Below, piece after piece: positions 28,167-63,493 of a DNA stretch of 64,000 nucleotides. A program made the position numbers and the translations under genes. The stretch lies in NCBI RefSeq assembly GCF_016097555.1, contig NC_054712.1, forward strand, positions 42,325,999 through 42,389,998, in the 5' to 3' direction. How positions within the stretch are numbered: the stretch's first letter is position 1; the number at the start of each line of letters is the position of its first letter. A model generated the notes under the pieces. That model was given only the letters and a program-made list of their open reading frames with translations, ran no database searches and was not told where the DNA came from. The stretch comes from Gigantopelta aegis. Its lineage: Eukaryota > Mollusca > Gastropoda > Neomphalida > Peltospiridae.

Positions 28167-28169
28167 TTG

Positions 28170-28917
28170 CTCTCACCCTTGCAGCTCACTTGTATCAAAA
28201 CAAACGTCGCTACCAAGTGTGACGTCATCTAATTGTTCATGACGCCAGTTCGGTCGGAAAACCTCGACTGATCCCGATGTAAGTTAAATCTATTCGGAAG
28301 TCGGCAGCCCACTCGAAACTACAAAATTGTTAATTACCTAAATGAAACCTCAGACACACAACAATCGGTTACAGTTTATATTAACGTTATCGGATCGAAA
28401 TGAATGATTTAAAAGCGTACGGGATGAGGGTGAGGGACAGAACTGTTTAAATGGAAGGAGCTCATTTGTGTGTATATGTAGGCCTATAGAATTCAATTTC
28501 CGTTACATTTCAATACAATTTAACGTCATGCCATTGGTCCAGCCGTGCAAACCGTTGAGCTGTAACACGGCACCGGGTTTCACTTGTGTTAAAAGTGGGT
28601 CGCGACCACTGGGTAATTTTCAAACAAGCTGATTTTGTGAAAATTTTAATAGTTAAACATTTATTCAAATGAGGTTTATTGTAAGGTTTTGATGAGCTAA
28701 GTTTCCATAAATAGTAGCCCGAGTACTCTGATGGGTAAGAGAGCTATACGGACATTTGGACAGTTACCAATGCTCTCTAACCGCCCGACACCAGTTTATA
28801 TAAATTCTGCGCAATCGCTGCCTACCAAATGTACGGTAGTCAGATTCCCGCTCTAATACAACAACAATCCTATGTTTGACGTTACATACATACCTTTACA
28901 TCGATCATTTTCGAGTT
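28170..28917. other. Probable promoter side of the speriolin-like gene; no repeat recognised
   Basis: Non-repetitive, moderately GC-containing DNA upstream of the minus-strand start codon. It must contain the 5' UTR and promoter. A CRE-like TGACGTCA lies at about 28220-28227 (in gtgtgacgtcatct), near the expected promoter. I cannot place the transcription start. Confidence 0.35.
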
Positions 28918-31604: not shown

Positions 31605-32883
31605 CTCAAAAGAATTTAAGGGTCAAAAATTTATAACCAAATAAGTTTCAGGGTGTATTAGATTGATGATGTAAACTACACCAAATATTTTATTTATTGT
31701 TCCATATTTACAAAAAAACAAAACAAATAAACGTCACTGTATACAAGAAAGTCACATGACATGCTGTCAAAGTTGAAGGTTGTCAAACATGGATTTTACA
31801 CATTAGAACATTCGTTTAATAGTGTGTGAATCCACCCCTGGCGTGAATACACTCGACACATCTTTGCCTCATGCTGTTGATCAGACGTCTGAAGAACTCT
31901 TGGGGAATGGCCTGCCACTCTGCCATAAGAAGTTGATCCAGATCATGAAGGTTGGCCGGAGGGGCATGGTTATCCCGAACTCTCCTGCCTAATTCGTCCC
32001 AGGCGTTCTCTATTGGGGCCAAGTCAGGCGAATATGCTGGCCAATCCATCCTGGCGATACCTTGTTGTCTGAGAAAGTCCGTTACCACCCTGGCGCGGTG
32101 GGGTCTGGCATTGTCATCCTGCAGAACTGCCCCGCCGCCAATCTGCTGAAGGCCTGGGAGAACCAACGGCCGGATAATCTCATTCAGATAGCGGATTCCA
32201 ATCAGATTGCCATCCACCACATAGAGGGGGGTCCTCTGGTGGATGGAGATGCCGCCCCACACCATGACGCTGCCACCACCGAAACGGTGACGTTGTCTAA
32301 CGTTAACATCAGCGAAGCGCTCCCCAGGACGTCTGTAGACACGAACCCGACCGTCGTTGAACTGGAGACAAAACCTGGACTCATCAGTGAACATCACTCG
32401 ACCCCACTGAACACGTTGCCACCGCCACCAAGTCTCAGAGCAACATTTCTTTGCGTATTGCCATCCTGAAGCCAAGCAATAGCCCTTCCTCGATCTTCGA
32501 TAGTCAGTTGAAGTCGTACCATTGTCGAATTTGGAGTGTGCACCGTACACGAACGCAAGCTCCAATTATACGGAAATTCAGCATTAGGAACATGGAATAC
32601 ACGTGCAAAGCGTGCAAATGAAGCGCTTTGTGAAAAAGCAAGTTATGGACACTTAGCAGACCTTTCACTTTCGTCCTAATTTACGTGCAAATGTAAGCAT
32701 GTTTTCGCCATTAGAACTAGTCGACAGTGTCAATGACAGTGGATTTTAATTCATTTATGGGTTGCTTAGACCCACTTTTGTCAAAATGGAACAATACCAT
32801 GCGTGATATTATGGTCTAGCTAATATAACTGACATTCAGAAAATAATGTCGAAAATATCGTCTGACCCTTAAATTCTTTTGAG
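31605..32883 (-). mobile_element. Tc1/mariner element, family A, internally deleted, nested in family B
   Basis: The same termini as the element at 13089-14673 (CTCAAAAGAATTTAAGGG and its complement) are flanked by TA. It is 1279 bp, about 300 bp shorter, because the segment coding for the second half of the DNA-binding domain is missing. It lies in the left part of a family B element. Confidence 0.9.
31816..32532 (-). pseudogene. Tc1-type transposase, family A (internally deleted)
   Basis: The catalytic region is uninterrupted: [17 protein letters not shown], then [18 protein letters not shown], ending at GGFTHY and a stop. Upstream, the sequence jumps from the first helix-turn-helix segment (GAGACTTGG) to TGGCGGTGGCAACG, removing about 300 bases and shifting the frame. 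The copy therefore lacks most of its DNA-binding domain. Its catalytic part is better kept than that of the copy at 13450. Confidence 0.87.
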
Positions 32884-33065
32884 TACTGCAATAAGTTTGA
32901 AAATAATGAGAAAAGATTCGCCAAAACACACCCTGTGTTTCCGAAAAGTCACTGTTTTCGGATTGAGTGAATTTCGTGCAGTCATGAAAAATGTGAAAAA
33001 CAGCATAATTTGAATTTGTTAAAAATGCTCGTGCATGATTGTTGCATAAATACCGGTGTGGGACA

Positions 33066-34127
33066 ATGCAAGGAAGCAATATCAAAAAGAACATCAGAGA
33101 GATGCCGAGACTTGCCCAAGCAGAACGCAACAGAGCTATCGGTATGGCCGATATGGGGGCCTCTCAACGGCAAATTGCAAGAACCTTCAACTGCAGTCAA
33201 GCAGCCATTAGCAACTTGTTGAGCCGTTATCAGCAGACAGGCCAGGCACAAGACCGTGCAAGATCGGGAAGACCAAAGGTCACAACGCCAGCTAAAGACC
33301 ACTACATCCGGACAATCCACCTGATGAACCGATTCGTGACGGCGATGTCAACGGCGGCGACGGCACTGGGACACCCCATCAGCAGACGAACAGTCTTACG
33401 ACGACTCCGCAGGGCTGGTATCAGAGCTTTCTGCCCCTTCCGTGAACTGGCCTTGACCCCTCTACACCGTGAACGCAGATTACAATGGGCACGAACTGTA
33501 CGGCTGTGGCAGCGGCGTGATTGGGAAAGGGTGCTGTTCACGGATGAAAGTCGCTTCAACATGTTCCGAAATGATGGCCGAGCTCGTGTTTATCGACGTA
33601 GGGGAGAAAGACTGGCGCCGAACTGCATCCAAGATGTGCACCCTTTTGGTGGAGGCGGCGTAATTGTATGGGGCGGTATTTGCGGTCAACGGACAACAAG
33701 GCTTCTCATCATCCGTGGAAATCTGACTGGTCAACGATACAGGGATAAAGGGTTGCGACCTGTTGTAGTGCCATTCTTGCGTCAACAGCCTAGGGGTACC
33801 CTTTTGCAGCATGACAATGCACGACCTCATACAGCCAGACTTGTTCAGCATTATCTCAACAACGTTAACGTCAACGTATTGCCTTGGCCATCATGTTCTC
33901 CAGACATAAATCCCATAGAGCATCTGTGGGATCATCTGGATCGACAGTTGAGACAACGCGTACCTCCCCCAGCAAATCGACAGCAGCTTGAACATTTTGT
34001 TGGATGTTTGGCGCAGAATTCCTGCTGACGTCATCCGGTGACTGATGACATCCATGAGGAGACGTGTTTTGGCGTGTATTGACGCAAGGGGTGGTCACAC
34101 ACGCTACTGTCCCATGATTTAACTTTA
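33066..34127 (+). pseudogene. Tc1-type DD34E transposase, family B (C-terminus broken)
   Basis: A long open frame from the ATG at 33066 carries an HTH region (MGASQRQIARTFNCSQAAIS), a second DNA-binding half with GRPK, and the catalytic motifs LFTDES, LQHDNARPH and CSPDINPIEHLWDHL, with 34 residues between the last Asp and Glu. A frameshift near 33990 ends the frame at a stop at 34028. In another frame the expected C-terminus (RRIPADVIR, then ACIDARGGHTRY) follows with a TGA, ending near 34127. All catalytic residues are present, so decay is mild. Confidence 0.88.
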
Positions 34128-35412: not shown

Positions 35413-35555
35413 CACATACATACATACATAGGCCCCTACATACATACATACATACATTCATATATACAGGCAGACAGACAGACAGACATATTATGACATA
35501 CTTCTAGATTCAGTGTGTTTTAATAAGTGTACATTTTTTTTTTTTTCAATTTTAG
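34773..35555. other. Upstream region and intron of the BTB-Kelch gene
   Basis: AT-rich DNA with a CA/CATA microsatellite (35278-35488) and CAGA repeats (35470-35487). The last bases form a long T tract ending ttcaattttag, a strong 3' splice site immediately upstream of the Kelch coding exon. A 5' UTR exon must lie further upstream; I cannot place it. Confidence 0.55.
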
Positions 35556-35563
35556 CTGTCGGA

Positions 35564-37195
35564 ATGGCAAAGGTTCAACTGTCGTTTCTTAGAAACATCC
35601 ACGAGCTACTAATTCAAGGCGACCACAACGACATAAAACTTGTTTTTCAAGATGGCTGCACGACTGGAAGTCAGATATGTCTGATAGCACTGTCGCCTTA
35701 TTTTGAAGCGATGTTGACGTCTGATATGTTGGAAAAGAACACTGGAGTGGTGATGTTACCGACAGTATCTAAACAAACGTTTAACAATGTGCTGAAATTT
35801 CACTTTCTTGGTGAAAACGTTGTCAACGACGCCAACTGTCACATGTTACTTGATATCGCCGAGTTGATGCTTTTGGATGACCTTAAGTCTTTCTGCATGG
35901 ATTACATGCATGACAATCTCACACTAACCGTGAAGAACTGCATTTACATTTGGAGATTATCTAATAATTATAACATGGAGAATCTTGCTACACAAGCATT
36001 TTGTCACGCGGTTAGAAACATGGGGGGTCTTTCAAAGAATAGATCCATCGTGGATTTGACAAAAGATGAATATCTTCAAATATTGTCTCAGTGTGATTTG
36101 TCGTATAAAGAAGAGGACGTTGTTCGAGATGTCCAGATGTGGATACAGGAAAACAACCCTTCAGATAACACTATGGTCGATCTGTTCAGAGAAATCAAAT
36201 TTGAGCACGTCAGCTTGAGTTATCTGACTGATGACATCGACTTTACAAGTTTTGTCCAGGAACACGGAGCGGTGCAGCAAGTGGTTCAGGAAGGCACCAC
36301 GCGTTACCACCACCCACGCCGAGAAACAGACTCATTTACTGACAATCGAGCTTTAGAGCTATGTCTGGACGTGGTGTTCGTGCTTAGAGGGTACGTGAAC
36401 GTTTTGTCGGCTGCCAGTTTAACCAACAAAACGTGGTACCAGTTACCGCCAGCTCCGTGTAACCCTGGCGACTGGTGTGCGGCGGCAGTGTTTGGTAAAT
36501 GTATCTACATCACAGGAGGCTATGAAAACAAGAACCTGACGTTGACGTATCGTGTCTGGGAAAGGGTGTGGGATTACGGGCCAATCCTAAAACACCAACG
36601 TTATGCTCACTGCATGACGGTCCTCGGCGACTCACTATACGTGATTGGAGGAGAGAACAGTAGCACCATAGAAGAGCTGCAGCACGGACAGCAAGAATGG
36701 CAGGTGGTTGGAGATATCGGCTGTAAGAGACAGAATTCCTCCGCTGAAGCTGTTGGAGAAAACATTCTCGTGGTGGGTGGAATCATGTATGGGAACATCA
36801 TAGACGTCATCCATTGCTTCAACACAAACACACATGCTCTGTCTATTATCGACATGCCAGAAACGACGGGATACGTCACGAGGTCGTATCGGTGGATGTC
36901 AGATATATATTTAGTGCACGATCACGGCGCTGTCGACCTCCTGCACATCGATGATGACTCAAGGATGCCGATACCGAGAGCTGAACGTGTGGCAGAATTC
37001 GACAAACCTGGGAGATGCTTTGGCTTTGTGAACAGAGGAAAGGACGATATCATCGTCTATTCGAAAAGTGGCATCCAGAAGTGGAACATCAGCGATGGCT
37101 CCAAAGAACGCATCAAGTTTCAAAATAGGCTAGAACATGGCGAGATCTTCGATACTTTAGAGATGAAGATACCGCCTTTCTATCTCGGTCCATGA
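35564..37195 (+). CDS. BTB-BACK-Kelch (Kelch-like) protein
   Basis: 543 residues in one exon. An acceptor ends at 35555, so the ATG at 35564 (ggaATGGC) lies near the exon start and a 5' UTR intron precedes it. The open frame extends upstream only through the T tract. Residues about 20-115 form a BTB domain (DIKLVFQDG, LIALSPYFEAMLTSDMLEKN), then a BACK domain (about 130-230, with FREIKFEHVSLSYL). From about 285 come degenerate Kelch blades (IYITGGYENKN, LYVIGGENSS, ILVVGGIMYGN). Kelch-like proteins usually act as CUL3 ubiquitin-ligase adaptors: BTB binds CUL3 and Kelch binds the substrate. Fewer clear GG motifs than a full six-blade propeller are visible. Single-exon members occur in expanded invertebrate families. 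The exact orthologue is not determined. Confidence 0.92.
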   Translation: MAKVQLSFLRNIHELLIQGDHNDIKLVFQDGCTTGSQICLIALSPYFEAMLTSDMLEKNTGVVMLPTVSKQTFNNVLKFHFLGENVVNDANCHMLLDIAELMLLDDLKSFCMDYMHDNLTLTVKNCIYIWRLSNNYNMENLATQAFCHAVRNMGGLSKNRSIVDLTKDEYLQILSQCDLSYKEEDVVRDVQMWIQENNPSDNTMVDLFREIKFEHVSLSYLTDDIDFTSFVQEHGAVQQVVQEGTTRYHHPRRETDSFTDNRALELCLDVVFVLRGYVNVLSAASLTNKTWYQLPPAPCNPGDWCAAAVFGKCIYITGGYENKNLTLTYRVWERVWDYGPILKHQRYAHCMTVLGDSLYVIGGENSSTIEELQHGQQEWQVVGDIGCKRQNSSAEAVGENILVVGGIMYGNIIDVIHCFNTNTHALSIIDMPETTGYVTRSYRWMSDIYLVHDHGAVDLLHIDDDSRMPIPRAERVAEFDKPGRCFGFVNRGKDDIIVYSKSGIQKWNISDGSKERIKFQNRLEHGEIFDTLEMKIPPFYLGP

Positions 37196-38225: not shown

Positions 38226-38687
38226 GGGCAAAACGTGGAGGACGAGGAGTTAATTGATTAGATAATGCAGATATTATCAAGTTAACACTATTGATCTAAC
38301 ATCCTCAGCTGATTGGTCCAACTACTTTTAAACTTTACTGTGATCATACAGACAACCAGTGAAACAAGACCAAAAATCATTTATAGTTAGATCATTTTGT
38401 TGTTGATTCTTGTGCTGTATATCTCATACCAGGAGTTTTCTTTTCCCATGCTATTTTAGTCGTCATGCAACCTTTATTTTGTTATTACTTTTTCCATTTA
38501 TTTTTTGTTTGTAGTTTTTTAATCTTTATGTTGTTAACCATACCAGAAGTTCTAGCTTTAAAATACATAACCATATTGATGAGTACATACATGTATTTGT
38601 ATTTATGTATGCAAGATACTATTCTTAACGTAAGTATTGATTGGTGCCTTACAAATTACAAAAAAAACTGCCCTTTTTTTCTGTAAA
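38226..38687. other. 5' flank of a LINE; no separate gene
   Basis: AT-rich DNA leading into the LINE open frame. It may include the LINE 5' region. I see no ORF1 for the element. Confidence 0.35.
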
Positions 38688-41319
38688 ATGGATATGAATA
38701 TAAACATAGTTAGTTTAAACTGTAGAGGTTTAAATGATTTATTAAAAAGGAAACAGGTATTCCATTTTTTTAAAAGTAAAAAAGCTTCAATATATTGTCT
38801 CCAAGATGTGCACTTTACCAAAGAATTAGAACAAATTGTTAAACAACAGTGGGGTTATTCGGAATGCTATTTTAGCTCGTTTAAATCTAATGCTCGGGGA
38901 ACAGCAATATTATTTAATAACAGTTTTGAATTTAAAGTAAATCCGATACAGGAAGATAAAAATGGTAATTATCTTGCACTGAGTGTTGAAATAGACAAAG
39001 ATTCTTACACGTTGATTAGTGTTTATGGTCCCAATTTAAATAAACCAACTTTTTATAACAATTTAATTAATATAATTGATAAATTAGATAGTAAATTTGT
39101 TATTTTATGTGGTGATTGGAATTTAGTTCAAGATCCAACACTTGATTTGTACAATTATAGAACAGTTAATAATCCAAATGCACGAGAAAAAATATTTGAT
39201 ATGATAGAAATATTTGACTTAAAAGATCCATGGAGAGAACATAACCCAGTTTCAAGGCGATTTACTTGGAGACAGACTACACCCTTGAAACAGTCACGGT
39301 TAGACTATTTTTTAATATCACATAATTTATTATCATCAGTTGTTTCTACAAATATTCATCCCAGTTTTAAATCTGATCATTCACTTATTGAATTAACATT
39401 AAAAATTAATGAAATAGAAAGAGGAAAGTGTTTTTGGAAGTTTAATAATTCATTACTTGAAGACAAGGAATTTGTAAAGTTGATTAAAGAAACTATAAAT
39501 GTAACTGTTGAGCAATACAAAAATAAAACTAATGACGAGACTATAAACCAATTCACAATCAAATCAATGATCAGCTTTTATGGGAGACCTTACTACTTAT
39601 GATTCGGGGGAAGACAATATGGTATTCATCAATAAAAATTTTTTTACAATAAATAGACAAAAAGAGTTAGAAATTGAACTTGATAGACTAACACAAAAAA
39701 TAGATGATACAGAAGATATTAATGTTAAAAACAAACTGATCCAAAATGTTAAATTAATTAATGTTAATACTGAAAAAATTAGTTGCATAAGAGCTAAAGT
39801 GAATTTTGTTAGATCAAAAGCAAGATGGGTTGAGAAAGGTGAAAAACCCACAAAATATTTTTTTAAATTTAGAATCTAGAAATGTTCTAAATAAATCTTT
39901 TGTAGAATTAGAGACAAATGATGGTCAAACAATCAAAGACACGGTGAGTATAATAGAGGAAACAAAGTCTTTCTTTAAAAAAACTTTATTCGAAAAAAAA
40001 ACAGTAAGTGAAGTAAACTTAGAAGAACTCTTTTCACACAATGACTTGAGTGAGTTCACAAAATTGGACCCAGATACTTCTGAATGTCTGGAATGTATAC
40101 TATGTTATGATGAAATCCTACAAGCTCTTAAAATTATGAAAAATGAAAAAAGTCCTGGCCCTGAGGATTTACAGTAGAATTAAAAAAAAAAAAATTGGAG
40201 AGATCTAAACAAATATCTAATAAATTCTTTAATTATGCATATAATAATGGAATGCTCTCAGTTACCCCAAAACAAGGTTTAATAACCTGTATTCCAAAAG
40301 TAAATACAAACAAGAAACTTTAAAAAAATTGGAGACCTATCTCTTTACTTAACGTGTCTTATAAATTAGCATCAGCTGCTATAGCCCGAAGAATAAAGTC
40401 GGTCCTTCCAATTATTATAAGTGAAGAACAAAAGGGATTTCTATCAGGTAGATTCATTGGTGAAGTGACACGATTGGTATATGATATTATGAATTATACC
40501 GAAGAACATAATATCCCAGGCTTATTATTATTGACTGATTTCGAAAAAGCCTTTGACTCGGTAGCTAGACTGGGATTTTATTCATAAAGTACTAAAGTTT
40601 TTTGGTTTTGGATGAAATGGGTTTACTTATTTCAGAGAGATAGCCAATCTAGTGTCCTTGTAAATGGATTTGCTTCATCTTTTTTTAACCTAGGAAAAGG
40701 GTGTAGGCAGGGCGATCCGGTGTCTCCATATATTTTCCTTCTCTGTGCAGAAATATTAGCCAGACTATTAAAAAACAATAATAATATAAAAGGAATAAAA
40801 CTTGGTAACACTGAATATTTATTTACTCAATTCGCACATGATACCACAGTAATATTAGATGGAACGGAGAAAAGCCTATATGCTACTCTGAATACTTAAA
40901 AAAAATATTCTAGATTTTCAGGTCTTAAAGTGAATATGGAGAAAACTAAATTGATTTGGATAGGATCAAAAAAACGCAGTCGTTATAAATTATGTAAAGA
41001 ATGGAAACTTGATTGGACAGACCAGTTTAATTTATTGGGAATTAAGTTTGATGTTGATTTAGAAAATATAGTTAAAATTAATTATACTGATAAAGTGAAA
41101 GCTATTGAGTCTTTAATGAATATTTGGTCAAGTAGAACTTTAACACCATTAGAAAGAAACACTGTTGTAAAATCCTTATTTATGGCAAAACTAAATCATT
41201 TATTTTCAGCCATTCCAAATCCGACTACTAATTTAATACTAGAATTTCAAAAGAAACTTTTTAAATTTATATGGAAAGGAAAACCAGATAACATAGTTTG
41301 TTTTTCTAAAAATATATAA
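38688..41319 (+). mobile_element. Decayed LINE with endonuclease and reverse transcriptase (L1/Tx1-like)
   Basis: Starts with an apurinic-endonuclease domain from ATG 38688 (IVSLNCRGLND, YCLQDVHF, LCGDWNLVQ, RFTWRQ, SRLDYFLIS, SDHSLI). A reverse transcriptase follows in several frames: KSPGPEDL, WRPISLLNVSYKLASAAIAR, LLTDFEKAFDSV, GCRQGDPVSPYIFLLC, then FAHDTTVILDG, where the usual catalytic ADD reads AHD. A region typical of L1/Tx1-type elements (NMEKTKLIWIGSKK) comes next. Stops and frame changes occur, for example a TGA-ended frame at 39602 and others near 39879, 40177, 40587 and 40899. The C-terminal part and 3' end are missing, so it is dead and truncated. Confidence 0.87.
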
Positions 41320-51902: not shown

Positions 51903-52014
51903 ATGTCTGCATTGATGGCCGCTGGTGTGGGGATCGTGCGAGCTCCTAAAGTAACAGGCTTGAAGAAACCACGACCGCTCCGAAGACAGACATCGTCCCC
52001 TGAACGACAGACAG
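51903..52014 (+). CDS. Serine-rich gene exon 1
   Basis: Encodes MSALMAAGVGIVRAPKVTGL followed by a basic KKPRPLRRQTSSPERQ stretch, a possible phosphorylation and 14-3-3-type region. The donor is ACAG followed by gtgatt, phase 1. The start context is gaaccATGt. The 5' UTR lies upstream, near the TA tract. Confidence 0.72.
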
Positions 52015-55000
52015 GTGATTGTATTTCACAGTGTGATAAATTGCACGTGTAGCTTTAGTGTGTGGGTAAATTCACAGTACTGTAAGGCCCAGAACACATC
52101 AGATCTGGCGAGTATGGTACCAGTCGAAAAAATTAAACACTGAATTGAATAGGACTAATTATGCTGTGTCTGTGCTGGCATGAACTACAGATCTGGCAGC
52201 AGACGACATAGAACATACGCTATATTTTCACACTGGCAGCTGCAGGGCACAATATTTCACGAGAACCGTTGTTTTGTTCGCATGTCGGTTATGCAACTTT
52301 ATAATCATGAGAACGCCAATCGGTTATGTGCTGCATAATTACATTCTAAAATTAAAAGTACCATATATCAGTAATGAAAGTGAAAATCAGCTTGTTTTTA
52401 AGTTTGAGCTGCAGCCTGTGCAAGCTGTATTAAAAAAAAAAATTCTTGATAAACAACTGGAAAGATGTATATTACTCAAAGTAGGATTCTCGTAATTATT
52501 GTTGGTGTTTATAGAACAAAATATATCTCAAGATATGAATGCAATATTGAAAAAACGTAACAGTTACAGACCCAGACGTCAGAATATACCAGACGTGGTG
52601 TGTCTTTGCCACACTCGCCAGACCCAACTTCGGTGTGTTTTGGACCTAACTCTCTTGCCCTTTATCATGTGACATAATCCCCCTTTACCTTGATTCCAAA
52701 AGAGTTTCTAATGGATTCTCAGCTTGTGATGATCATATGGCATTGAGCAGAAAACTTTCCCCAACTAAAACTACTTGCAGCACTTGCACATTTTGGTAGT
52801 GTTAATTTCATTGGACAGTGTGGTTTTGGCATCTAGGCCACAGTCTTTGACAAGAACAAAATCAAGGTGAACTGAAGGTCGCCCCAGAAATGGTGCTAGG
52901 CGGGCAGTCTCGTTAAGTTTGAAATGACGTTTAGTAAAAAGTTTATTACAAGGTGATTTGCCACACCTAAAACTTTTCAGGTGAGGTGTAGGGGAGTGGG
53001 AGAGATTACTCGCCTTTCCTGGCGAAGACTGAGATCAGCATTGTGGACATCTTTAACTTTTAGACTACTGGATTAATTTTTGACAAAAACCACGTTGAGT
53101 GGGTACAAGTTTATAATTTTTACTCGCATATATTCACTTAAATGTTTTATAAATACATAAATTCATATTTGAATCGGTAAGTATTAGTTTCGTGGGTTTT
53201 TCTAATTTTTATGATATTTTAGATCAGTTAATATTGATTAAAATTAAGTAAACAATCTTAGAAGTTGTGTTTACTTACGGGCATATGTGGCCATCTGTCC
53301 AGTATTTATGTCCATTATTCCCATTAACAATGTCATTCTCACTAGAATTAAAAAAAATCCCCTACAATTCATATCCCAATATATGGTGATGTTGGGCGAG
53401 ATACTTTGCCTGCAGTAGTCAGAAGGTTAAATTGATCTCTCTTGTACATTTATCATGCATACAAAACATTAGATAAAACTGTTCACTACTTATCGGAAAC
53501 AACTGCCTATTTTCAAAGATAATGACAACCTGTGGACCACACAGTTTAAATATTTTTATTTATTTCTTTCAGACATGAAACCCCCGCTACCAAAGCGTTC
53601 TACCAGTATGTTTGAATCACAGGAGGATCGGTTTCGGAATCTCATCATAACAACCGACTCTACTTGTAGCGTTGATAACGAGAGGTATTCACAGGTGAGG
53701 AAACAGATATTTTCATTTGTAACTAGCAGAAAGGCTATCTTATACCGAGAAACATCCCCTTGTGCAATATTTGATAATACAAAATTATTTTGTACTGATA
53801 GGATATGATATTGGGGGTCAAAATTGGTTGAAATACCTGCCAGTCATTTGGTCCAGCAAGCCACAGTGCTCGCTTGATGTATGATTGGTCTGTGATCGAT
53901 CCATTGGACTATTTCTTGTTCCAGCCAGTGCACCATGACTGGTATAACAAAGGCCGTAGTATGTGCTATCCTATCTGTGGGATGGTGCATATAAAAGATC
54001 CCTTGCTGGTAATCGAAAAAGAGTAGCCCATGAAGTGGCGACAGCGAGTTTCCTCTCTCAATATCTGTGTGGTCCTTAACCACATGTCCGATGCCATATA
54101 ACCGTAAATAAAATGTGTTGAGTGCGTCATTAAATACATGTCCCTCCTTTATTCTGCCTCGGTAGTTTTGGACTGAATTTGCCATTATTCTTTGAGCTTC
54201 TTAGACCCTGCAATGTACATTATATATATCTATAAATTATTATTCCCTACTGGTCCAACTGGAGGGGACTATAGGTTTCGTCTCTGTCTGTTACATATAG
54301 TTTTTCAGATTTTCTTTTCATAATGCCTTAGGATATTGAGCTGATGTTATGGGTATTGCTTTATCAAGTATTGTTACAGCGGGTTTCCTCCCTCAGTATC
54401 TGTGTGGTCCTTAACCATATGTCCGATGTCATATAACCGTGAATAAAATGTGTTGAGTGCATAATTAAATAAAACACTTCCTTCCTTTTAACAGAAACAT
54501 TTGGGTAGACAAATATACTTAAGATAGGTCAGGTCAATATGGATCCCTGAAGTTGTTGTACGTTATTTCAGAACACTCTTGACAGCTTGTGCAGTGACAC
54601 CATGATCGAGTGCAACAACAACATCTTGAAGCAGAGTCTTCACTACCCGAGTGTTGGCAGCCGTCGCTCGTCCATTGACAGCTCCGCATCGGAATCATCG
54701 TCATCAGCGAGTCACCGACCCACCACCGTTGCCAGGCAGGTGAGCGAGTCTGGCAACATGAGGAGTGCAAGCGAAGAACAACCACAGTGTCAGACAGTTG
54801 GGTACAAAGCCACGCCCCACGAACGCGTGATCTTCAGACGGTCGTCTGGTGGTGGTGGTAGTGATGGTAGACATGTTCCACCGTTCAACAGACAGTCCTC
54901 GACATCCAGTTCCTCCAGTGGTGATCAGTCCGACTGCAACGCTAACCGTCTAAACACGGGGAATGTCAACGTGTACATACACAATGTTAAAGTGGAACAA

Positions 55001-58000
55001 CAGAACCGCGATGATGGGGAGAGGCTGGAAGTGGGGACTTCGATGACGGACGATCTTAAGACTTCGCCTGGTAGTCCCGTCCATACGTGTGGCTCTGAGG
55101 GTGCTATTCAGACTTCGCCATACGCCGCTGCCAAGAACTTCCAGACTGTGACGAATCCTGTGATATCATCGAAGGCGGAGGTGTTTTGTTCGAGTGGAGG
55201 CAGGGGCGGTGGTGGTGGCGAGGGTGGTGTAAAGAACACCAAGGACATGTGGGCGATCACCCAGCACGTGCACAAGGCAAAGATGGAGGAGCTGCACCAC
55301 AAGCTGGGCAGTCTGAGGCCGGCCGATCCCCACCTCCTGCAGAAACAGATCCAACTGGCCAGGCGGCAGTTCCTCGAGGAGTCGGACCAGGACGTACCAC
55401 ACAACACAGAGTCCAGGTTTGTGTGTGTTAAATTATAGATTTCTCCTCGTGTTGTGTCGTAGTTCTTCTAAATCTGAATCTTTTAAAGCTATCTTAGCAC
55501 TATAAAAATCATAAAACCATCGTAGGTTATGACACAACTGCAGCACATGCCATATTGACATCATAGACAAGGACAGACCACACAACACATAGTCCAGGTT
55601 TGTGTGTGTTTTATAGATTTCTTCTCGTGTTTTGTTGTAGTTCTCCTAAACCTGGTGAGGGATGTTTTAAGCTATATTAGCACTACGCAATCATAAAACC
55701 ATTGTAGGCTATGATGTCACTACAGCATGTGCCATAGTGACATCATAAACAAGGACAGACGACACACAACAGAGTCCAGGTTTATGTGTGTTTTATAGAT
55801 TTCTCCTTGTTTTGTGTCGTAGTTCTTCTAAACCTGATTAGGGATTTTTGAAGCTATCTTAGCACTTGGGAAATCATAAAACTGTCGTAGGTTATGTCAC
55901 AACAGCATGTGCCATCGTGACATCATAAACAAGGACAGACCACGCAACACCGTGCCTCGTGTGGTGTCATAGCTCTTCTAAATCTGGTTAGGGATGTTTT
56001 AAGGTATATTAGCACTAGGGAAATCATAAAACTATTGTAGGCTATGATGTGACTACAGCACATGCCATAGTGATGCCATAAACAAGGACAGACCACACAA
56101 CACAGAGTCCAGGTTTGTATTTAATGTATTTTGGTGTTTTTTTTGTCGTAGTTCTTCTAAATCTGATACGGGAGTTTTAAAGCAGTCTTAGCACTACAAA
56201 GTCATAAAATTATGATAGTCTATGATGTCCCTACAGCACTCGCCATATTGACATAATGGCTAAGGACAGACCACACAACACAGTCCAGTTTTGTCCATAT
56301 TTCATGGATTTCTCCTCATTTTGTCTCAACTTTTAAACCTGTATTAGCACTACAAAATCATAAAACCATCGTAGGCTATGATGTCACTACATGGCACAGT
56401 GATTATGATGGTTTTACGATTTTAAAGTGCTAAGATAGCTAAGAAAATATGGCCTTGATTCTCATATGATGCCACTGTATACCTCTATCATCGACATGGA
56501 TTATTTACTGAATGTTGGCTTGTTTTGCTGGCTTGCCATTAATAGGTGACTACGAGTGATTTTTTACTCCCCTTATTTAATATAATAATAAATGTCCATC
56601 GGATATAAAATTAAAAAGAATACTTCCCTAATGAATGATTATTATTTACATAATTTGTGCATTTTGATAACCTTACAAGTGATGTATAAATTGAAAACGT
56701 CATCCCTGTTTGGTTAATATTAGTTTGTAGTATGGTGTTAATATTTAATTATAAACCAATGACGTTGCATCATTCTTCTGTATCAATTTGTTTAGGTCGC
56801 ATGAAATAGCCGCCTTTAATTTAATTTTCACCTGTTATTTCTATGCTGTGGTTTTGTGTTTGCTGAATGTTTGCTTGTTTTGTGTTGTAGTTCTTCCCCT
56901 GCTCAGTCTGATGATACACCTCTATCACCAGTGTGGATTATTTACTGAATGTTTGATTGTTTTGTGTTCTACCCCTGGTGATTCTGATGATACAGCACCA
57001 TCGTACACCTCTGTCGTTAGTGTGGATTATTTACTGAATGTTTGATTGTTTTGTGTTATAGTTCTTCCCCTGCTGATTCTGATGATACAGCAACATCGTA
57101 CACCTCTGTCATCAGTGTGGATTATTTACTGAATGTTTACTGATTATTTACTGAATGTTTGATTGTTTTGTGTTATAGTTCTTCCCCGAATGTTTGATTG
57201 TTTTGTCTTGTAGTTTTACCCCTGCTGATTCTGATGATACAGCACCATCGTACACCTCTATCATCAGTGTGGATTATTTACTGAATGTTTGCTTGTTTTG
57301 AGTTGTAGTTTTACCCCTTGAGTCTGATGATACAGCACCATCGTACACCTCTATCATTAGTGTGGATTATTTACTGAATGTTTGATTGTTTTGTGTTGTA
57401 GTTCTACCCCTGGTGATTCTGATGATACAGCACCATCGTACACCTCTGTCGTTAGTGTGGATTATTTACTGAATGTTTGATTGTTTTGTGTTGTAGTTCT
57501 ACCCCTGGTGATTCTGATGATACAGCACCATCGTACACCTCTGTCATCAGTGTGGATTATTTACTGAATGTTTGATTGTTTTGTGTTGTAGTTCTACCCC
57601 TGGTGATTCTGATGATACAGCACCATCGTACACCTCTGTCATCAGTGTGGATTATTTACTGAATGTTTGATTGTTTTGTGTTGTAGTTCTACCCCAGGTG
57701 ATTCTGATGATACAGCACCATCGTACACCTCTGTCATCAGTGTGGATTATTTACTGAATGTTTGATTGTTTTGTGTTGTAGTTCTACCCCTGGTGATTCT
57801 GATGATACAGCACCATCATACACCTCTGTGATCAGCATGGATGGAGAGAAACTCGTCTTGGCATCCAGATGTCTGAAGACTCTTATGGTATGACATATGA
57901 CACGAAAAATACTCTAGTTTCCTTAAATCCCGTATTTTAGTCCTGCCAGAAAACTTTCCTGCCCTTGTTTTGCTTACAAGAACCTAATTTTCATAGCCAT

Positions 58001-61000
58001 TCAGAGTTTTAGACCTGGGGAATTATTAATTTCTTCCCATACTTAGATAATTGGGAACCATTAAAGATATTACTATATTGTGTATTTATATAAAAAATTA
58101 TATTCACATTCTAAGGGCAGATAAAAATTACTCTCCTTGAATTAGTCTGAGGGGAGTATCCCCTTGAACGGCAAGGTCTAGAGTTAGTGAATTTTTTGTC
58201 CAGTGTCATTTTCAGTTGTGATGAAAGGACAAACGTCCATCTGCACATCCTCCATACAGACAAGCACATTTGGTGCTCTTGCAGAACAATGACGGTAAAA
58301 TAAATGGATATTAATTATCACGCGAGCTTGTGTAAGAGTCGAGCAGTATTTAAGTGACTTATTGCTAGACAGCAAAACCTCCCATTTTATTGAAACTTAA
58401 GTTGCCAAATGCTGTAGATCCTGAAATTAATGCGTCCCAAAATTAATTGCAGTGACGGTGGGCAGACAAAAATACGACATGAAATTAATACGAGTGGCCT
58501 CCCTATGAAATATTACTTTTCTAATAATACACGTCTGTCTACTTTTCGTTTAAATCTGAGTTACAGGCGTCTTTAATTAGATGAACTCACTAATATGTTA
58601 GTGTACACATCAATTAGCCTGTTTAATCCCTAGTGTTTTTTGTGGAGTTCAACTCAAAGCATATTTTTGCAGCAATGATTTACATAACGTGTATAATTAC
58701 CTAAATCTGGCTAAACATTATCATACATGTACCATTGCAACTATATCTTATTAAGATATGCCGACAAAGTTGCAGTGAACTTGAACAGCAAAAACAAAGA
58801 AATGGTCGTGCTAAAACCCATTCACGCATGATGCATTGTGTCGGCTTTTGCTGGCCTATTGGACAATTAGTCTATCTTACCTACGATGATTTGTGCTCAT
58901 GTTGTTTTACAAATGTATAAATTAGAATTTTAATCTTTCTTTACTGGCCTCAATAGTGTTGTGGTTAAGCCATCAGACATAAGGGTGGTAGATACAGGGT
59001 TCGCAGCCCAGTACAAGCAAGTTTTAATGACTCAGTGGGTAGGTGTAAGACTATTACACCCTCTTCTCTCTCACTAACAACTAAGCTACTCTCCTGGACA
59101 GACAACCCAGATAGCTGAGGTGTGTGCCCAGGACTGCGTGCTGGAGCCTTAATTGGATATAAGTACAAAAATAAATTGAAATAAAATGAATGTCATAGTT
59201 AAGCCATCGGATATGAGGCTGGTGGGTACAGGGTTTGCAGTCCGGTACCAGCTCCCACCCAGAGCGAGTTTTAATGACTCAATGGGTAGGTGTGAGACCA
59301 CTAGTCCATTACACACTTTTTTTCTATCACTAACCACTAACAACTAACCCACTGTCCTGGACAGACATCCCATATAGCTGAGGCGTGTGCCCAGGGCACC
59401 ATGCTTGGATATAAGCACGAAAATAAGTTGCAATGAAAACAAAATTTTGTTTGTTTTAATAGCATATGACACATGCATGTAGCTTGCTGAACTATTGCTG
59501 GATACATTTAAAAAAAAAAAATGCATCATATTATTAATGCGAATAACACGAACCCGCATTTTTCGCATGAACATTAAAATTGTTATATTAGAATCACATT
59601 AATTTCAGGATCTACAGTATATCATGGTGTTATATTCAAGAAAAATTATTATTTTACGAATGGATTGCAATTTTCAGTCAGCTTGACTGGTTGAACAAGT
59701 TGTTAGAACAGTCTACTTGTCTTGCACCAAAACCACTTGTAGATGAGTGTTAACAAAGAGCTGTCCTCTCTCTCCTGTTTCAGAAAGCTGTCAACAAGAT
59801 TTGTCAGATGAAGGGTACCCACTTGATAAAGTTAGAGAGCACTGAAGGCTGTGACATACAGGTATATTTTAATTTGTTGTTTCTTAATTTTTAAGGGTGG
59901 AAGTGTTCACCCACCTCAGCCAACCCTTTTAACCCCCATTCCAACCAGTGCTCCAATCTTATATGGTCTCTGGGATCGATCCCTGTTTGTGGACCTGTTG
60001 AGAGATTTTTCATTCCCACTAGTGCACCACGACTGGTATATCAATGGCTGTGGTATGTGCTATCCTGTCTGAGATGGTGCATATAAAAGATAGCGTAGCG
60101 GGTTTCCTCATTAAGACTATATTTAAAAAATATTACCAATTGTTGGCTGTCCATAGCCGATGATTAATAAATCAACATGTTCTAGTGGTGTCGTTAAACA
60201 AAACAAACTTTGTATTGTGTCATACACCATATTTGTTGCTGTAACAGACACAAACAAAGTGTGAGACAGATTTAAAATTGATATTTAATTTGTATGTTTG
60301 GTTGAGTTTGCTTTATTTTATCTGAGATATTTTTAAAACTGCAGCAATTATTTCTATTTTATGTTCATAGTCAAGCATGCCAAGGAAAGCAAAAGTGTCA
60401 GCGACGAAGCACGTAGTTAGAAGTACACCATTTAAAAGTACGTACTGTGCTTTTTAATCATTTATTCCTTTCTTCTTTTCACTTATTAGTATCTGATTAC
60501 TGGTTTGTGTTTTCCGTTTTATTATTTATCTCTGAACCGTTTAAGAATTGCATTTTTATGTCTTAATTTATAAATTTTTATGCTGAAAATGATTTCATTT
60601 CCTGGTTTTAATATTTCTAAAAGGTTGATTTTAAAATGGTCCATATTACTGACCTTTTAAAGCAAAATTTCAGTGTCGTAAATGACATACAATTTACTGA
60701 AGTAAACCACACATTTTGGTTTGACCAGGGTTTAAGCATGTTGTGTTTAAAAACATATAGCCAATCGTGGAATGTTATTTGTATTAGCATTTTGTTTGTT
60801 TTAAAAGAGTATGCAGACATTAACTTCCAGCTCATAGCGTGTGGCTCGTACCCTCATAAAACTGTTAAAAACATTGTGAACGGCTTATTATTAGTGATTA
60901 ATTTATACATGAAATATATTTGTCAAATACAGTTGTAATTAGTTTGGGTGGGGTTTTTTTTGTGTGTGATTAATCTAACAGTACATCTTAAAACTGTTGC

Positions 61001-63493
61001 CCTTAGCTTTTAGGTGGTGTAAAATATTTTCGATTGTTACTGTTACGTTTTTATTGATAACTTAAACACTACTGCAGGCCTTAAATTTGGCAAATTAAAG
61101 GGCAAGACCATTTGGCACAGACCAATGGAGACTTTTTGAGGGCATTGCGGTCAGAATGCAGGGCAACAAGGCAAACTTTAACAAGCAAAACAGCACGCAT
61201 TCAACATTAAGCAGGGGGCGGGATCGATCCCCGTCGGTGGGCCCATTGCGCTATTTCTCGTTCCAGCCAGTGCACCATGACTGGTATATCAAAGGCCGTG
61301 GGATGGTGCATATAAAATATCACTTGCTGCTAATCGAAAGGAGTAGCCCATGAGGTGGCGACAGCGGGTTTCCTCTCTCAATATCTGTTTGGTCCTTAAC
61401 CATATGTCTGATGCCATATAACCATAAATAAAATGTGTTGAGTGCGTCGTTAAACAAAACCTTTCTTTATAATAAAATCCCTTGCTGCTAATCGAAAAGA
61501 GTAGCCCATAAAGTGGCGACAGCAGGTTTCCTCCCTCAATATCTGTGTGGTCCTTAACCCTATGTCCGACACATATAACCATAAATAAAATGTGTTGAGT
61601 GCATTGTTAAATAAAACATTTCTTTCCTTATAATAAAACAACTTTCAGGAGTCGTGTTTGAGTATGATGACCAGTTAGTACCGAGTATTATGAGGGCATT
61701 GAAGCATATGACTATTTATTACGACAATTTGCAGCTTGACCCTGCTACTGACAACTTTTTACTTTAATTATTATTTTTGTTAAGTCCCATACTTGTTACC
61801 CGTCTCGGACACTAGCATCGGCAGCTTTTAGTTCTGCCTGTCATTTAGACATGGTTCACATTCTGTGCTACTTTCAGATCCGCCTTCTCACAACTTTGGT
61901 CAAGGTGATGGGCTGTCGAAGTTTGGTGAACAAAGCTTTGAATGGCAGATTCTACACGAGGAACTGGACACAAACTCGTTCAGCAATAGAGAGCCTCAGT
62001 ACGATCCTGAGGAGTCGTGTTCTGCTGAAAGTAAGTAGATTGGTGATGTACTAGTGTACGATCTCGTTTAACACTAGAGAGAGTCAGTACGATCCTGAGG
62101 AGTCGTGTTCTGTTGAAAGTAAGTAGATTGGTGATGTTCTAGTGTATGATCTTGTTTAACACTAGAGAGAGTCAGTACTATCCTGAGGAGTTGTATTCTG
62201 TTGAAAGTAAGTAGACTAGTGACGTTCATCTGATTTATAAAATATTAAACGAGGGAAATAATTTTCAATCGTCACAAGCTTTTTAGCGAGTGACAATGAA
62301 AATAATTGCACAACTGGTATATCAAAGGAATGCGCTACCCAATCTACTAATGGAAAATTTTTGTGGGTTTCCTCTTTAAGACTATAATGACAAAATTATC
62401 AAATGTTTGGCATCCAGTAGCTGATGATTAATGAATTGGTGTGCTCAAGTGGTGTCTTGATAATTGCAAGAAAGTCCTTTAAAAAGGACCATCCTGACTT
62501 TGCAACTATTGTGACGTATTTTCAAATAAAAATTACTTTTCTTTTCAACATTACCTGTCCTCAAACAAGTGCACTCACCTCCTACAGCTAGTAGTCTGGT
62601 CCTAACATACCAAAAGCCAATGGGATGGCCTAAATTCTTCTACTGTATGCTCCTTCTAGTTCCGGTCACGTGACTGTAACTCCCTTCATTTTTCCTTCGC
62701 TGTTCGGTTAGGACATCCATTACTTTGGCGTTGATTTATCAAATGTGTTTCTGGTTCTAGTATAAATTGTTTTGTAGGTTAGAAATTAATTTTTAGGTAA
62801 AATACAGTTTGGGCTGCCTACAAACATTAGGATAAAAAGAGACCTTGTGTATACAGACATCTAAACAAGACAATGTATCGTATATGTGAGTTTAGTTGTT
62901 GGAGATGCTCTGTTATCCGGAAACATATTGCAATGGCAAACCTCTGGCAAGAATCTATAGGCAGTCCTGTAAATATTGTATACATGTAACATGATGAACT
63001 GGGTCTGTGTTTTCAGATTTAAGGTGAGACTCTTGCGAAGAAGCTATAGAGAGTTGTAAATATTGTATAACATAGAACTGGGTCTGTGATTCAGATGTAA
63101 GACAATACTCTTGACAAGAAGCTATAGACAGTCCTGTAAATATTGTATAACATAGAACTGGGTCTGTGATTCAGATGTAAGACAATACTCTTGACAAGAA
63201 GCTATAGACAGTCCTGTAAATATTGTATAACATGATGAGCTGGGTCTGTGTTTTCAGATTTAAGACAGGACTCTTGAGAAGAAGCTATAGACAGTCCTGT
63301 AAATATTGTATAACATGATGAACTGATGTGAGATTTAACACATGTTGAGCTGGGTCTTGTGTTTTCAGATTTAAGACAGTACTCTGACAAGAAACTGCTG
63401 GGTCTGGCCAAACGCTCGTTGTCACGACATCAGCCCGAGAACTGGCACTCGATGCATCATGACTTCCCAGAAGTCTGTCTCCTCAATCTCGAG
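51903..63493 (+). CDS. Serine-rich protein gene, eight exons, continues beyond the window
   Basis: Exons 51903-52014, 53573-53694, 54572-55416, 57782-57887, 59784-59861, 60371-60437, 61878-62030 and 63369-63493 join without a phase error into 536 residues with no stop. The last donor (GAG, gtaact) leads out of the window. The start ATG is preceded in frame by TGA two codons upstream. The N-terminal half is basic then Ser-rich and probably disordered. Residues about 301-350 (ITQHVHKAKMEELHHKLGSL, QKQIQLARRQFLEES) look helical or coiled-coil. The later part contains LVLASRCLKTLMKAVNKICQ and RSLSRHQPENWHSMHHDFPE. I do not recognise the family. A cytoskeletal or scaffold role would be a guess. 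Introns 3 and 7 contain tandem arrays of duplicated splice junctions. Confidence 0.8.
53573..53694 (+). CDS. Serine-rich gene exon 2
   Basis: Acceptor ttatttctttcag; donor TCACAG followed by gtgagg. The exon completes a GAC codon and encodes MKPPLPKRSTSMFESQEDRF through DNERYSQ, with a proline-rich and a serine-rich segment. Confidence 0.78.
53855..54150 (+). repeat. SINE family 1 in intron 2
   Basis: Head partly degraded (ccagtcatttggtccagcaa), core and tail good, ending near the gagtgcgtcattaaata block. Confidence 0.85.
54375..54490 (+). repeat. SINE family 1, 3' fragment in intron 2
   Basis: Starts at the acagcgggtttcctccctca block and includes the full tail with a TTCCTTCC end. Confidence 0.82.
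54572..55416 (+). CDS. Serine-rich gene exon 3 (largest)
   Basis: Acceptor cgttatttcag; donor GTCCAG followed by gtttgtg (a weak donor), phase 2. Encodes 281 residues: Ser-rich tracts (SSIDSSASESSSSASHRP, QSSTSSSSSGDQSD), two Gly runs (RSSGGGGSDG, GGRGGGGGEGG), a hydrophobic VNVYIHNVKVEQQN strand-like piece and the helical LLQKQIQLARRQFLEES. The last about 30 bases plus donor are the unit that is tandemly repeated downstream in the intron. Confidence 0.85.
55417..56400 (+). repeat. Tandem array of duplicated splice donor (about 182-bp unit), intron 3
   Basis: Units repeat the end of exon 3 (ccacacaacacagagtccag) with its gt and about 150 bases of intron. Donor copies lie at 55417 (used by the model), 55598, 55780 and 56113; two more units near 55950 and 56288 have lost or altered the GT. 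Each unit also contains a pseudo-acceptor (tgttgtagttct) like those of the second array. Use of any later donor would add a stop (AAA TTA TAG follows the first junction in frame). Confidence 0.85.
56465..57781 (+). repeat. Tandem array of duplicated splice acceptor (95-bp unit), intron 3
   Basis: Units repeat the intron end (gattgttttgtgttgtag) plus the first about 55 bases of exon 4 and a gtggattatttactgaatgt segment. Copy starts: 56891, about 56966 (AG lost), 57062, 57179 (truncated), 57214, 57309, 57402, 57497, 57592, 57687, then the true exon at 57782. The last five steps are exactly 95 bases. A more decayed copy lies near 56465. In each decoy, the exon frame runs into CTG AAT GTT TGA. 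Confidence 0.9.
57782..57887 (+). CDS. Serine-rich gene exon 4
   Basis: Acceptor tgtgttgtag; donor CTTATG followed by gtatga. Encodes STPGDSDDTAPSYTSVISMD then GEKLVLASRCLKTLM. Only this last copy of the repeated acceptor region continues into GGAGAGAAACTC and a donor, so it is the only copy that can be a complete exon. Confidence 0.8.
58944..59190 (+). repeat. SINE family 3 (nested)
   Basis: Head (ggcctcaatagtgttgtgg), box-B-like ggttcgcagccc, then the ctggacagacaacccagata block and a gtacaaaaataaattgaaat end. Confidence 0.8.
59191..59447 (+). repeat. SINE family 3 (nested, second tandem copy)
   Basis: Directly follows the previous copy: tgtcatagttaagccatcgg start, gttt gcagtccggtacc, tail to gcacgaaaataagttgc. 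The head lacks its first bases, so it may have inserted into the A-rich tail of the first copy. Confidence 0.78.
59784..59861 (+). CDS. Serine-rich gene exon 5
   Basis: Acceptor tctcctgtttcag; donor ATACAG followed by gtatat. 26 codons, phase 0 at both ends: KAVNKICQMKGTHLIKLEST then EGCDIQ. Confidence 0.75.
59960..60210 (+). repeat. SINE family 1b in intron 5
   Basis: Core (tgcaccacgactggtatatc) and 1b tail (the gtgtcgttaaacaaaacaaac end) are clear; the head is shortened. Confidence 0.82.
60371..60437 (+). CDS. Serine-rich gene exon 6
   Basis: Acceptor atgttcatag; donor TTTAAAA followed by gtacgt, phase 1. A second GT seven bases later would put a stop in the next exon, so the first is chosen. 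Encodes SSMPRKAKVSATKHVVRSTP then FK, a basic segment. Confidence 0.68.
61213..61468 (+). repeat. SINE family 1 in intron 6
   Basis: Starts in the head (gggcgggatcgatccccgtc, with part of the head missing) and runs to the tail. Confidence 0.85.
61475..61625 (+). repeat. SINE family 1, 3' fragment, tandem to the previous copy
   Basis: Starts at aaaatcccttgctgctaatc right after the tail of the previous copy and repeats the distal half to the tail. This may be a tandem duplication of the SINE's 3' half. Confidence 0.8.
61878..62030 (+). CDS. Serine-rich gene exon 7
   Basis: Acceptor gctactttcag; donor GAAA followed by gtaagt, a near-perfect donor. Encodes NPPSHNFGQGDGLSKFGEQS, FEWQILHEELDTNSFSNREP and QYDPEESCSAE, an acidic segment. 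The last about 55 bases plus the donor recur twice downstream. Confidence 0.78.
62031..62225 (+). repeat. Tandem array of duplicated splice donor (88-bp unit), intron 7
   Basis: Two extra copies of the exon 7 end (tcagtacgatcctgaggagt ... tgaaa) plus gtaagtag follow the true donor at 62031. Donor copies are at 62119 and 62207, exactly 88 bases apart each time. All keep gtaagtag, an excellent 5' splice site. Exon extension to a later copy would read GAA AGT AAG TAG, a stop. Confidence 0.9.
62305..62470 (+). repeat. SINE family 1b fragment in intron 7
   Basis: Carries caactggtatatcaaagg, then the 1b tail (aaatgtttggcatccagtag, gtggtgtcttg). Head and very end are missing. Confidence 0.7.
62765..62945 (+). 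repeat. Fragment of the TTAA MITE of 16999-17390
   Basis: Shares the acagtttgggct, ctaaacaagaca and tccggaaacat blocks with the right half of that MITE. Termini are not present. Confidence 0.6.
62995..63368 (+). repeat. Tandem array of duplicated splice acceptor (about 80-bp unit), intron 7
   Basis: Units repeat gctgggtctgtgttttcag plus the first about 25 bases of exon 8 (atttaagacagtactct) and a gctatagacagtcctgtaaa segment. Copy starts: 63017, 63095, 63175, 63258, then the true exon at 63369. Spacing is 78, 80, 83 and 111 bases. In most decoys an extra T gives TCT TGA in frame, so use of a decoy would stop translation at once. Confidence 0.88.
63369..63493 (+). CDS. Serine-rich gene exon 8
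   Basis: Acceptor cttgtgttttcag; donor CTCGAG followed by gtaact. Encodes LRQYSDKKLLGLAKRSLSRH, then QPENWHSMHHDFPEVCLLNL and E. Only this copy of the repeated region goes on into the long open segment with a donor. The gene continues beyond the window. Confidence 0.8.

Follow-up and report, generated by a model that had tools for sequence, protein, structure and literature searches.

Four tandem arrays at both ends of introns 3 and 7 of a single gene in the deep-sea vent snail Gigantopelta aegis, a peltospirid, are very probably mirages: tandem duplications that spanned the exon-intron borders by chance, then grew as ordinary minisatellites, and are tolerated rather than regulatory. The gene, LOC121388199, lies in the 64,000-nucleotide stretch of a chromosome that was analysed here, C14:42325999-42389998 of the assembly (the window, whose coordinates are used throughout unless a locus is named). 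Mirages, minisatellites spanning exon-intron borders, were described at both 5' and 3' borders in amphioxus (PMC3087553, PMC3902484); the original prediction, which knew of no described pattern with this layout, was therefore mistaken on this point, the amphioxus cases being the same thing. No report of mirages in molluscs or gastropods was found in the open-licence PubMed Central literature among the matches listed. Within the literature searched, what is new is the presence of mirages in a mollusc, four of them in one gene, together with others at conserved genes elsewhere in its genome.

LOC121388199 encodes a public predicted uncharacterised protein of 599 aa. Joining seven exons gave an open frame of 498 residues with 100% identity to this protein over the searched part, and the eight in-window exons, exon 1 included, give 536 open codons identical to its residues 1-536; the remainder is coded just beyond the window end. 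The exons are as follows.

51903..52014, plus strand: exon 1, coding part (tblastn of the LOC121388199 protein; end fixed by the exon model)
53573..53694, plus strand: exon 2 (exon model)
54572..55416, plus strand: exon 3, with the authentic donor CAG/GTTTGT at 55416/55417, matching the public protein
57782..57887, plus strand: exon 4, with the authentic acceptor TTGTAG/TTCTAC
59784..59861, plus strand: exon 5, neither border with an array
60371..60437, plus strand: exon 6, neither border with an array
61878..62030, plus strand: exon 7, with the authentic donor AAA/GTAAGT
63369..63493, plus strand: exon 8, with the authentic acceptor TTTTCAG/ATTTAAG
about 64146-64337 in window coordinates: exon 9, beyond the window end

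The protein showed no Pfam family above the cut-off and no PDB relative. Homologue searches with residues 250-485 of the 498-aa part (938 candidates, E 10), residues 500-599 (58 candidates, E 1) and residues 1-140 (577 candidates, E 1) returned the protein itself alone, and an Rfam search of the window gave no match. In intron 6, an open stretch behind a good acceptor (61651-61767, plus strand) ends in a stop and is absent from the public protein; it may serve as an alternative last exon or have no meaning.

All four arrays, designated A to D, were reported by Tandem Repeats Finder (TRF). They and their intact decoy sites are listed below.

55389..56448, plus strand: array A, about six units of ~180 bp (TRF 55389-56294, periods 182 and 178)
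after 55597, 55779 and 56112: intact decoy donors of array A
56865..57842, plus strand: array B, 95-bp units (TRF 56915-57842)
56891, 57062, 57179, 57214, 57309, 57402, 57497, 57592 and 57687: intact decoy exon starts of array B
61975..62222, plus strand: array C, three 88-bp units (TRF)
after 62118 and 62206: decoy donors of array C
62948..63396, plus strand: array D, ~80-bp units (TRF 62948-63325, period 80)
63017, 63095, 63175 and 63258: decoy exon starts of array D

Each unit combines a piece of an exon with its splice site and flanking intron. The array A unit holds the last 28 nt of exon 3, the donor and ~75 nt of intron, followed by the left arm of a palindromic element and its centre; the array B unit holds ~34 nt of intron end, the acceptor and the first 61 nt of exon 4. 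In array C the unit consists of the last 56 nt of exon 7, the donor and the intron start, and in array D of the intron end, the acceptor and the first ~28 nt of exon 8. The authentic border copy stands at the exon-side edge of each array, being the first donor or the last acceptor in the exon model. When each junction was searched by BLAST, same-strand copies spanning the junction were found at 4 of the 14 in-window junctions (four copies for the exon 3 donor, nine for the exon 4 acceptor, two for the exon 7 donor and three for the exon 8 acceptor), and none at the other 10. TRF gave no array of period 10 or more in intron 8; over the whole gene, including the exon 9 side, 4 of 16 junctions lie at array edges. 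The junction BLAST, like the placement test given below, took the end of exon 1 at 52013 where the exon model has 52014.

The four splice-junction arrays that had been proposed from the letters alone were thus borne out by TRF and the junction BLAST, and their layout, unit lengths and exon numbering hold against the exon model. The claims about decoys stand with corrections. Intron 3 carries three intact decoy donors and nine intact decoy acceptors, and intron 7 two and four. Array A has about six units, but not every unit has a donor: three of the five extra units keep it, unit 4 having lost it by deletion and unit 6 having lost its GT. Array B has its nine intact acceptors, but the unit at 56947 has lost its AG. 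The array B unit gave 10 genome matches, all inside the array at this one locus and none from a second haplotype, in the assembly of one individual.

The likeness to the amphioxus mirages, which have been described in Adh3, the globins Gb6 and Gb9, troponin C and PGBD5 (PMC3087553, PMC3902484), extends to several features: a unit made of exon end, splice site and intron with the authentic copy at the edge; AG or GT kept in many but not all units; concerted evolution within the array with the boundary copy excluded; and a unit length in the same range, reported as 10-160 bp. The snail case differs in being from a mollusc, in that both ends of two introns carry arrays, four in all, and in that one array is palindrome-based. 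The amphioxus mirages are additionally backed by RT-PCR and by length differences between haplotypes.

The units within each of the arrays vary by substitutions and indels in an orderly fashion. In all four arrays, identity to the authentic copy drops with distance from the exon (1 of 5000 permutations was as steep); this test used 20 copies that are not independent of one another, and excluded the partial unit at 57131 and the far degenerate pieces of arrays B and D. Apart from the outer ones, the full units of array B are 88-100% alike pairwise, the units at 57471 and 57566 being identical and those at 56947 and 57376 identical over their shared columns. The authentic exon 4 copy, by comparison, is 78-87% identical to the full-length B units (at most 87.4%), and the positions at which it differs are the same for every unit. 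The arrays have grown and been homogenised internally, with the boundary copy left out.

Array A contains a further component. Its unit gave at least 68 genome matches, six in the array and 62 elsewhere (with 40 of 868 candidates scored), and all 62 outside matches fall within positions 78-181 of the 184-nt unit. Many of these are overlapping plus/minus pairs, palindrome-like, and the six outside copies that were compared all have two arms and a centre. A short palindromic MITE-like element is dispersed in the genome in at least dozens of copies (e.g., L093-L098); it resembles the MITEs, short palindromic relatives of DNA transposons, in being short, palindromic and dispersed. Units A1-A5 have no right arm, and in each of them the left arm and centre are followed directly by a further copy of the end of exon 3. 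The sole copy in array A with both arms, identified by sequence comparison, is the following.

56339..56448, no strand assigned: palindromic element

Since the right arm is kept solely in this distal piece, the element probably preceded the array, duplication having joined its centre to the exon end. Array A was built on a transposon-like palindrome that lay close to the start of intron 3. The folding of the unit was unusual at 55690-55775 (z -2.90, reached by 1 of 200 shuffles) and less so over the longer piece 55641-55775 (z -1.64, 13 of 200). Nothing unusual was seen for a hairpin in the units of B, C and D (z -0.28, 0.01 and 1.18, respectively). A hairpin as the common cause of all arrays was rejected because only the A unit has an unusual fold; a causal role for the palindrome fits array A only.

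The decoys are not distinguished from the real sites by their strength. In intron 3, the real donor and two of the three decoys share a U1 duplex energy of -9.4 kcal/mol, against -5.6 kcal/mol for the third decoy; in intron 7, all three donors have -7.2 kcal/mol. The real donors are therefore without advantage over most decoys by U1 pairing. The public predicted protein corresponds exactly to the outermost donor and the innermost acceptor in both introns.

The sequence of events that we propose for the mirages begins with a tandem duplication that happens to span an exon-intron border, and the border copies would then be amplified and homogenised as in any minisatellite. Array A would have been seeded at the palindromic element inside intron 3, its units running from exon 3 to the centre of the element. 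Under exon definition, the splicing machinery treats each exon as one unit. Pairing between the sites that flank an exon would pick the exon-nearest donor and acceptor, so that the decoys would be removed with the intron; border duplications directed into the intron would then leave the message unchanged and be close to neutral, and selection would guard the authentic copy only. Expansion and decay of the arrays would yield a longer intron and a stock of cryptic sites with no regulation. Splicing of LOC121388199 is presumably normal despite the arrays; the amphioxus mirages leave splicing undisturbed (PMC3087553, PMC3902484), which supports this view by analogy.

The original prediction had raised the possibility of local duplication with a preference for exon-intron borders; such a process could act, for example, through transcription- or splicing-linked breakage. 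A survey of conserved genes in the same genome makes such a process unlikely. Genome searches covered the assembly of 1,149,253,464 bases in 5,216 contigs, and exon ends were taken from domain searches for the myosin head (80 matches), protein kinase (136) and kinesin motor (124). The survey took 30 of the 80 myosin loci, 30 of the 136 kinase loci (of which 16-odd had usable ends) and 20 of the 124 kinesin matches (the first 20 rows without internal stops). Rows were dropped if they held more than one internal stop, and ends if they lay 8 positions or fewer from the domain edge. An end was counted as positive if a same-strand copy within 400 bases reached across the end of the domain match with 10 nt or more to either side. 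Positives were found at 6 of 104 exon ends and 6 of 62 loci (myosin 4/52, kinase 2/16 and kinesin 0/36). Control points in introns 500-1000 bases away had tandem copies at 20 of 168, and the difference, which runs against a border preference, gave a Fisher p of 0.14. Tandem repeats abound in this genome, and splice borders are neither preferred nor spared.

By eye, five of the six positives clearly include exon (L015, L017, which is decayed, L018, L061 and L063), and in the sixth, L027, the acceptor is covered with hardly any exon. The clearest is myosin locus L018, where the exon ends in ACIDLIER with the donor GTGAGT and is followed by seven further copies of exon end and donor, intact and at an exact 80-base spacing. 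Since the exon at L018 is a matched part of the myosin domain, copying there ran from the exon into the intron. Kinase locus L061 has its own donor and four decoys. Decayed exon-end copies that miss the survey rule were also seen by eye at the 3' ends of L017 and L077. Left of the exon at L024 and L042, minisatellites abut the authentic myosin acceptor and contain no exon, the repeat supplying part of the intron end.

Within LOC121388199 itself, some results speak for a border preference. All four of the larger arrays sit at borders. When four arrays of these lengths were placed at random in the gene, a junction fell 10-65 nt inside the end of each array at a frequency of 0.000345 in 200,000 trials, or 0.030 under a looser rule by which a junction counts once it lies 10 nt or more inside. 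For 4 affected junctions out of 14, the chance that both ends of two introns are hit is 0.021, and at the survey rate a single gene would have at least four of its 16 junctions affected with P = 0.012. The placement, pairing and outlier figures are not predicted by a neutral process, but all are after the fact, the placement and pairing tests having been set up once the pattern was seen. LOC121388199 is a high outlier among the few genes examined, and was itself chosen for its pattern. Border-favouring duplication is therefore unsupported genome-wide, with this gene still standing out.

An origin of the introns themselves by tandem duplication, with both ends derived from one segment, is very unlikely. 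Introns are known to be gained when an exon segment containing AGGT is duplicated in tandem (PMC3443670). The snail arrays share with it a tandem duplication around splice signals; unlike it, no intron was made here, an existing intron having gained copies, and the ends of intron 7 are dissimilar. A case of intron gain by this route is reportedly found in potato. The array A units contain TTTTGTGTCGTAG/TTCT, which resembles the exon 4 acceptor, and only 20 of 5000 shuffles scored as well against that acceptor as the majority consensus of array A; a hand-edited consensus scored 1/5000, and the unedited figure is preferred. Taken singly, the scores of units A1, A2, A3 and A5 were reached by 1, 1, 0 and 0 of 500 shuffles, whereas those of A4 and A6 were reached by 141 and 131. 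The two borders of intron 3 gave a comparison matched by 1 of 300 shuffles, but the borders of intron 7 gave 231/300, the array-free intron 5 was about as low as intron 3 (2/300), and the match spans only ~18 nt. A common origin of arrays A and B is suggestive only.

The second explanation offered in the original prediction was a regulated poison-splicing device, in which decoys would be used in some conditions and add stops, so that mRNA decay would lower the protein. Poison exons and unproductive splicing are a known system, and the snail arrays resemble it in that use of a decoy would add stops. The reading frame behaves as that prediction had it: a stop arises in 39 of the 40 donor-acceptor pairs tested for intron 3 and in 14 of the 15 for intron 7, which leaves the outermost donor joined to the innermost acceptor as the one open combination and all 53 other tested pairs closed. 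Pseudo-exons of 135-140 nt could also be delimited by acceptor-donor pairs in array A, every one of them containing a stop, and the decoys that are intact are about as strong as the real sites. The arrays do not provide tandem alternative exons, as the units are partial exons and all tested alternatives have stops. The difference from poison exons is that the stops here are expected by chance. In random intron stretches of this gene, a stop in a given frame occurs at a frequency of 0.80 for 80 nt, 0.82 for 88 nt, 0.85 for 95 nt and 0.97 for 182 nt; no excess of stops over this expectation per array was found, stops in all four arrays are about an even bet, and the stops are therefore no sign of a device. 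Against regulation there are also the lost decoys (A4, A6 and the B unit at 56947), the presence of similar arrays in unrelated housekeeping-type genes, and the strongest array, that of myosin L018, in which use of the first decoy would lengthen the message by a stop-free 80 nt and shift the frame instead. A poison-splicing device is highly improbable.

An assembly or gene-model artefact is extremely improbable: although the assembly was made from noisy PacBio reads with wtdbg2 and copy numbers may be off, it was built from reads of at least 8 kb and polished with Racon and Pilon (PMC7895826), compared with arrays of about 1 kb or less whose units differ in an orderly way by substitutions and indels, and like arrays recur in conserved genes.

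The reading of the four arrays as mirages can be extended to the genome, though with only an even chance of being right: mirages would occur genome-wide in the snail lineage, independently of amphioxus, with several percent of borders carrying intact decoys, and border duplication would be ongoing and sometimes seeded by palindromes. If so, thousands of genes would test the choice of the spliceosome among up to eight or ten near-identical sites. Mirages had previously been described as a possible cephalochordate peculiarity; a mollusc case that includes several conserved genes indicates that border-spanning minisatellites recur in repeat-rich animal genomes. Their effect is to make introns longer and to supply them with cryptic splice sites ready for use. 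The arrays also serve as natural experiments on splice-site choice, in which identical donors lie adjacent and one is presumably used, and as a warning to gene annotators, who face many equal-looking junctions per array.

Several other features were noted in and near the window. A Speriolin C-terminal domain (Pfam E 1.4e-33) lies at 8805-9536 on the minus strand, and 16751-16981, 24900-25400 and 27870-28172, also on the minus strand, are probable further speriolin-like coding pieces; together they may be one minus-strand gene. Three of the four coding pieces of this speriolin-like gene have no tandem copies, and the fourth has short weak ones only. At 35432-37192 on the plus strand lies a long open frame, the domains of which are BTB, BACK and Kelch. 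A Tc1/mariner-like transposase frame at 13781-14461 (plus) has a confirmed DDE_3 domain, and further such frames at 31816-32565 (minus) and 33039-34028 (plus) were assigned by likeness only. The endonuclease domain of a LINE-like element, followed by reverse-transcriptase-like frames, is found at 38634-39599 (plus). An element of ~6 kb at 18715-24764, whose two internal ORFs gave no Pfam match, is bounded by ~1.4-kb terminal inverted repeats, which share 94.7% identity over 1,377 columns and are built of ~292-bp tandem repeats. Lastly, a 32-bp tandem array of about 99 copies was found 15 kb past the window end, at C14:42405453-42408594 (about 5455-8596 of L010).
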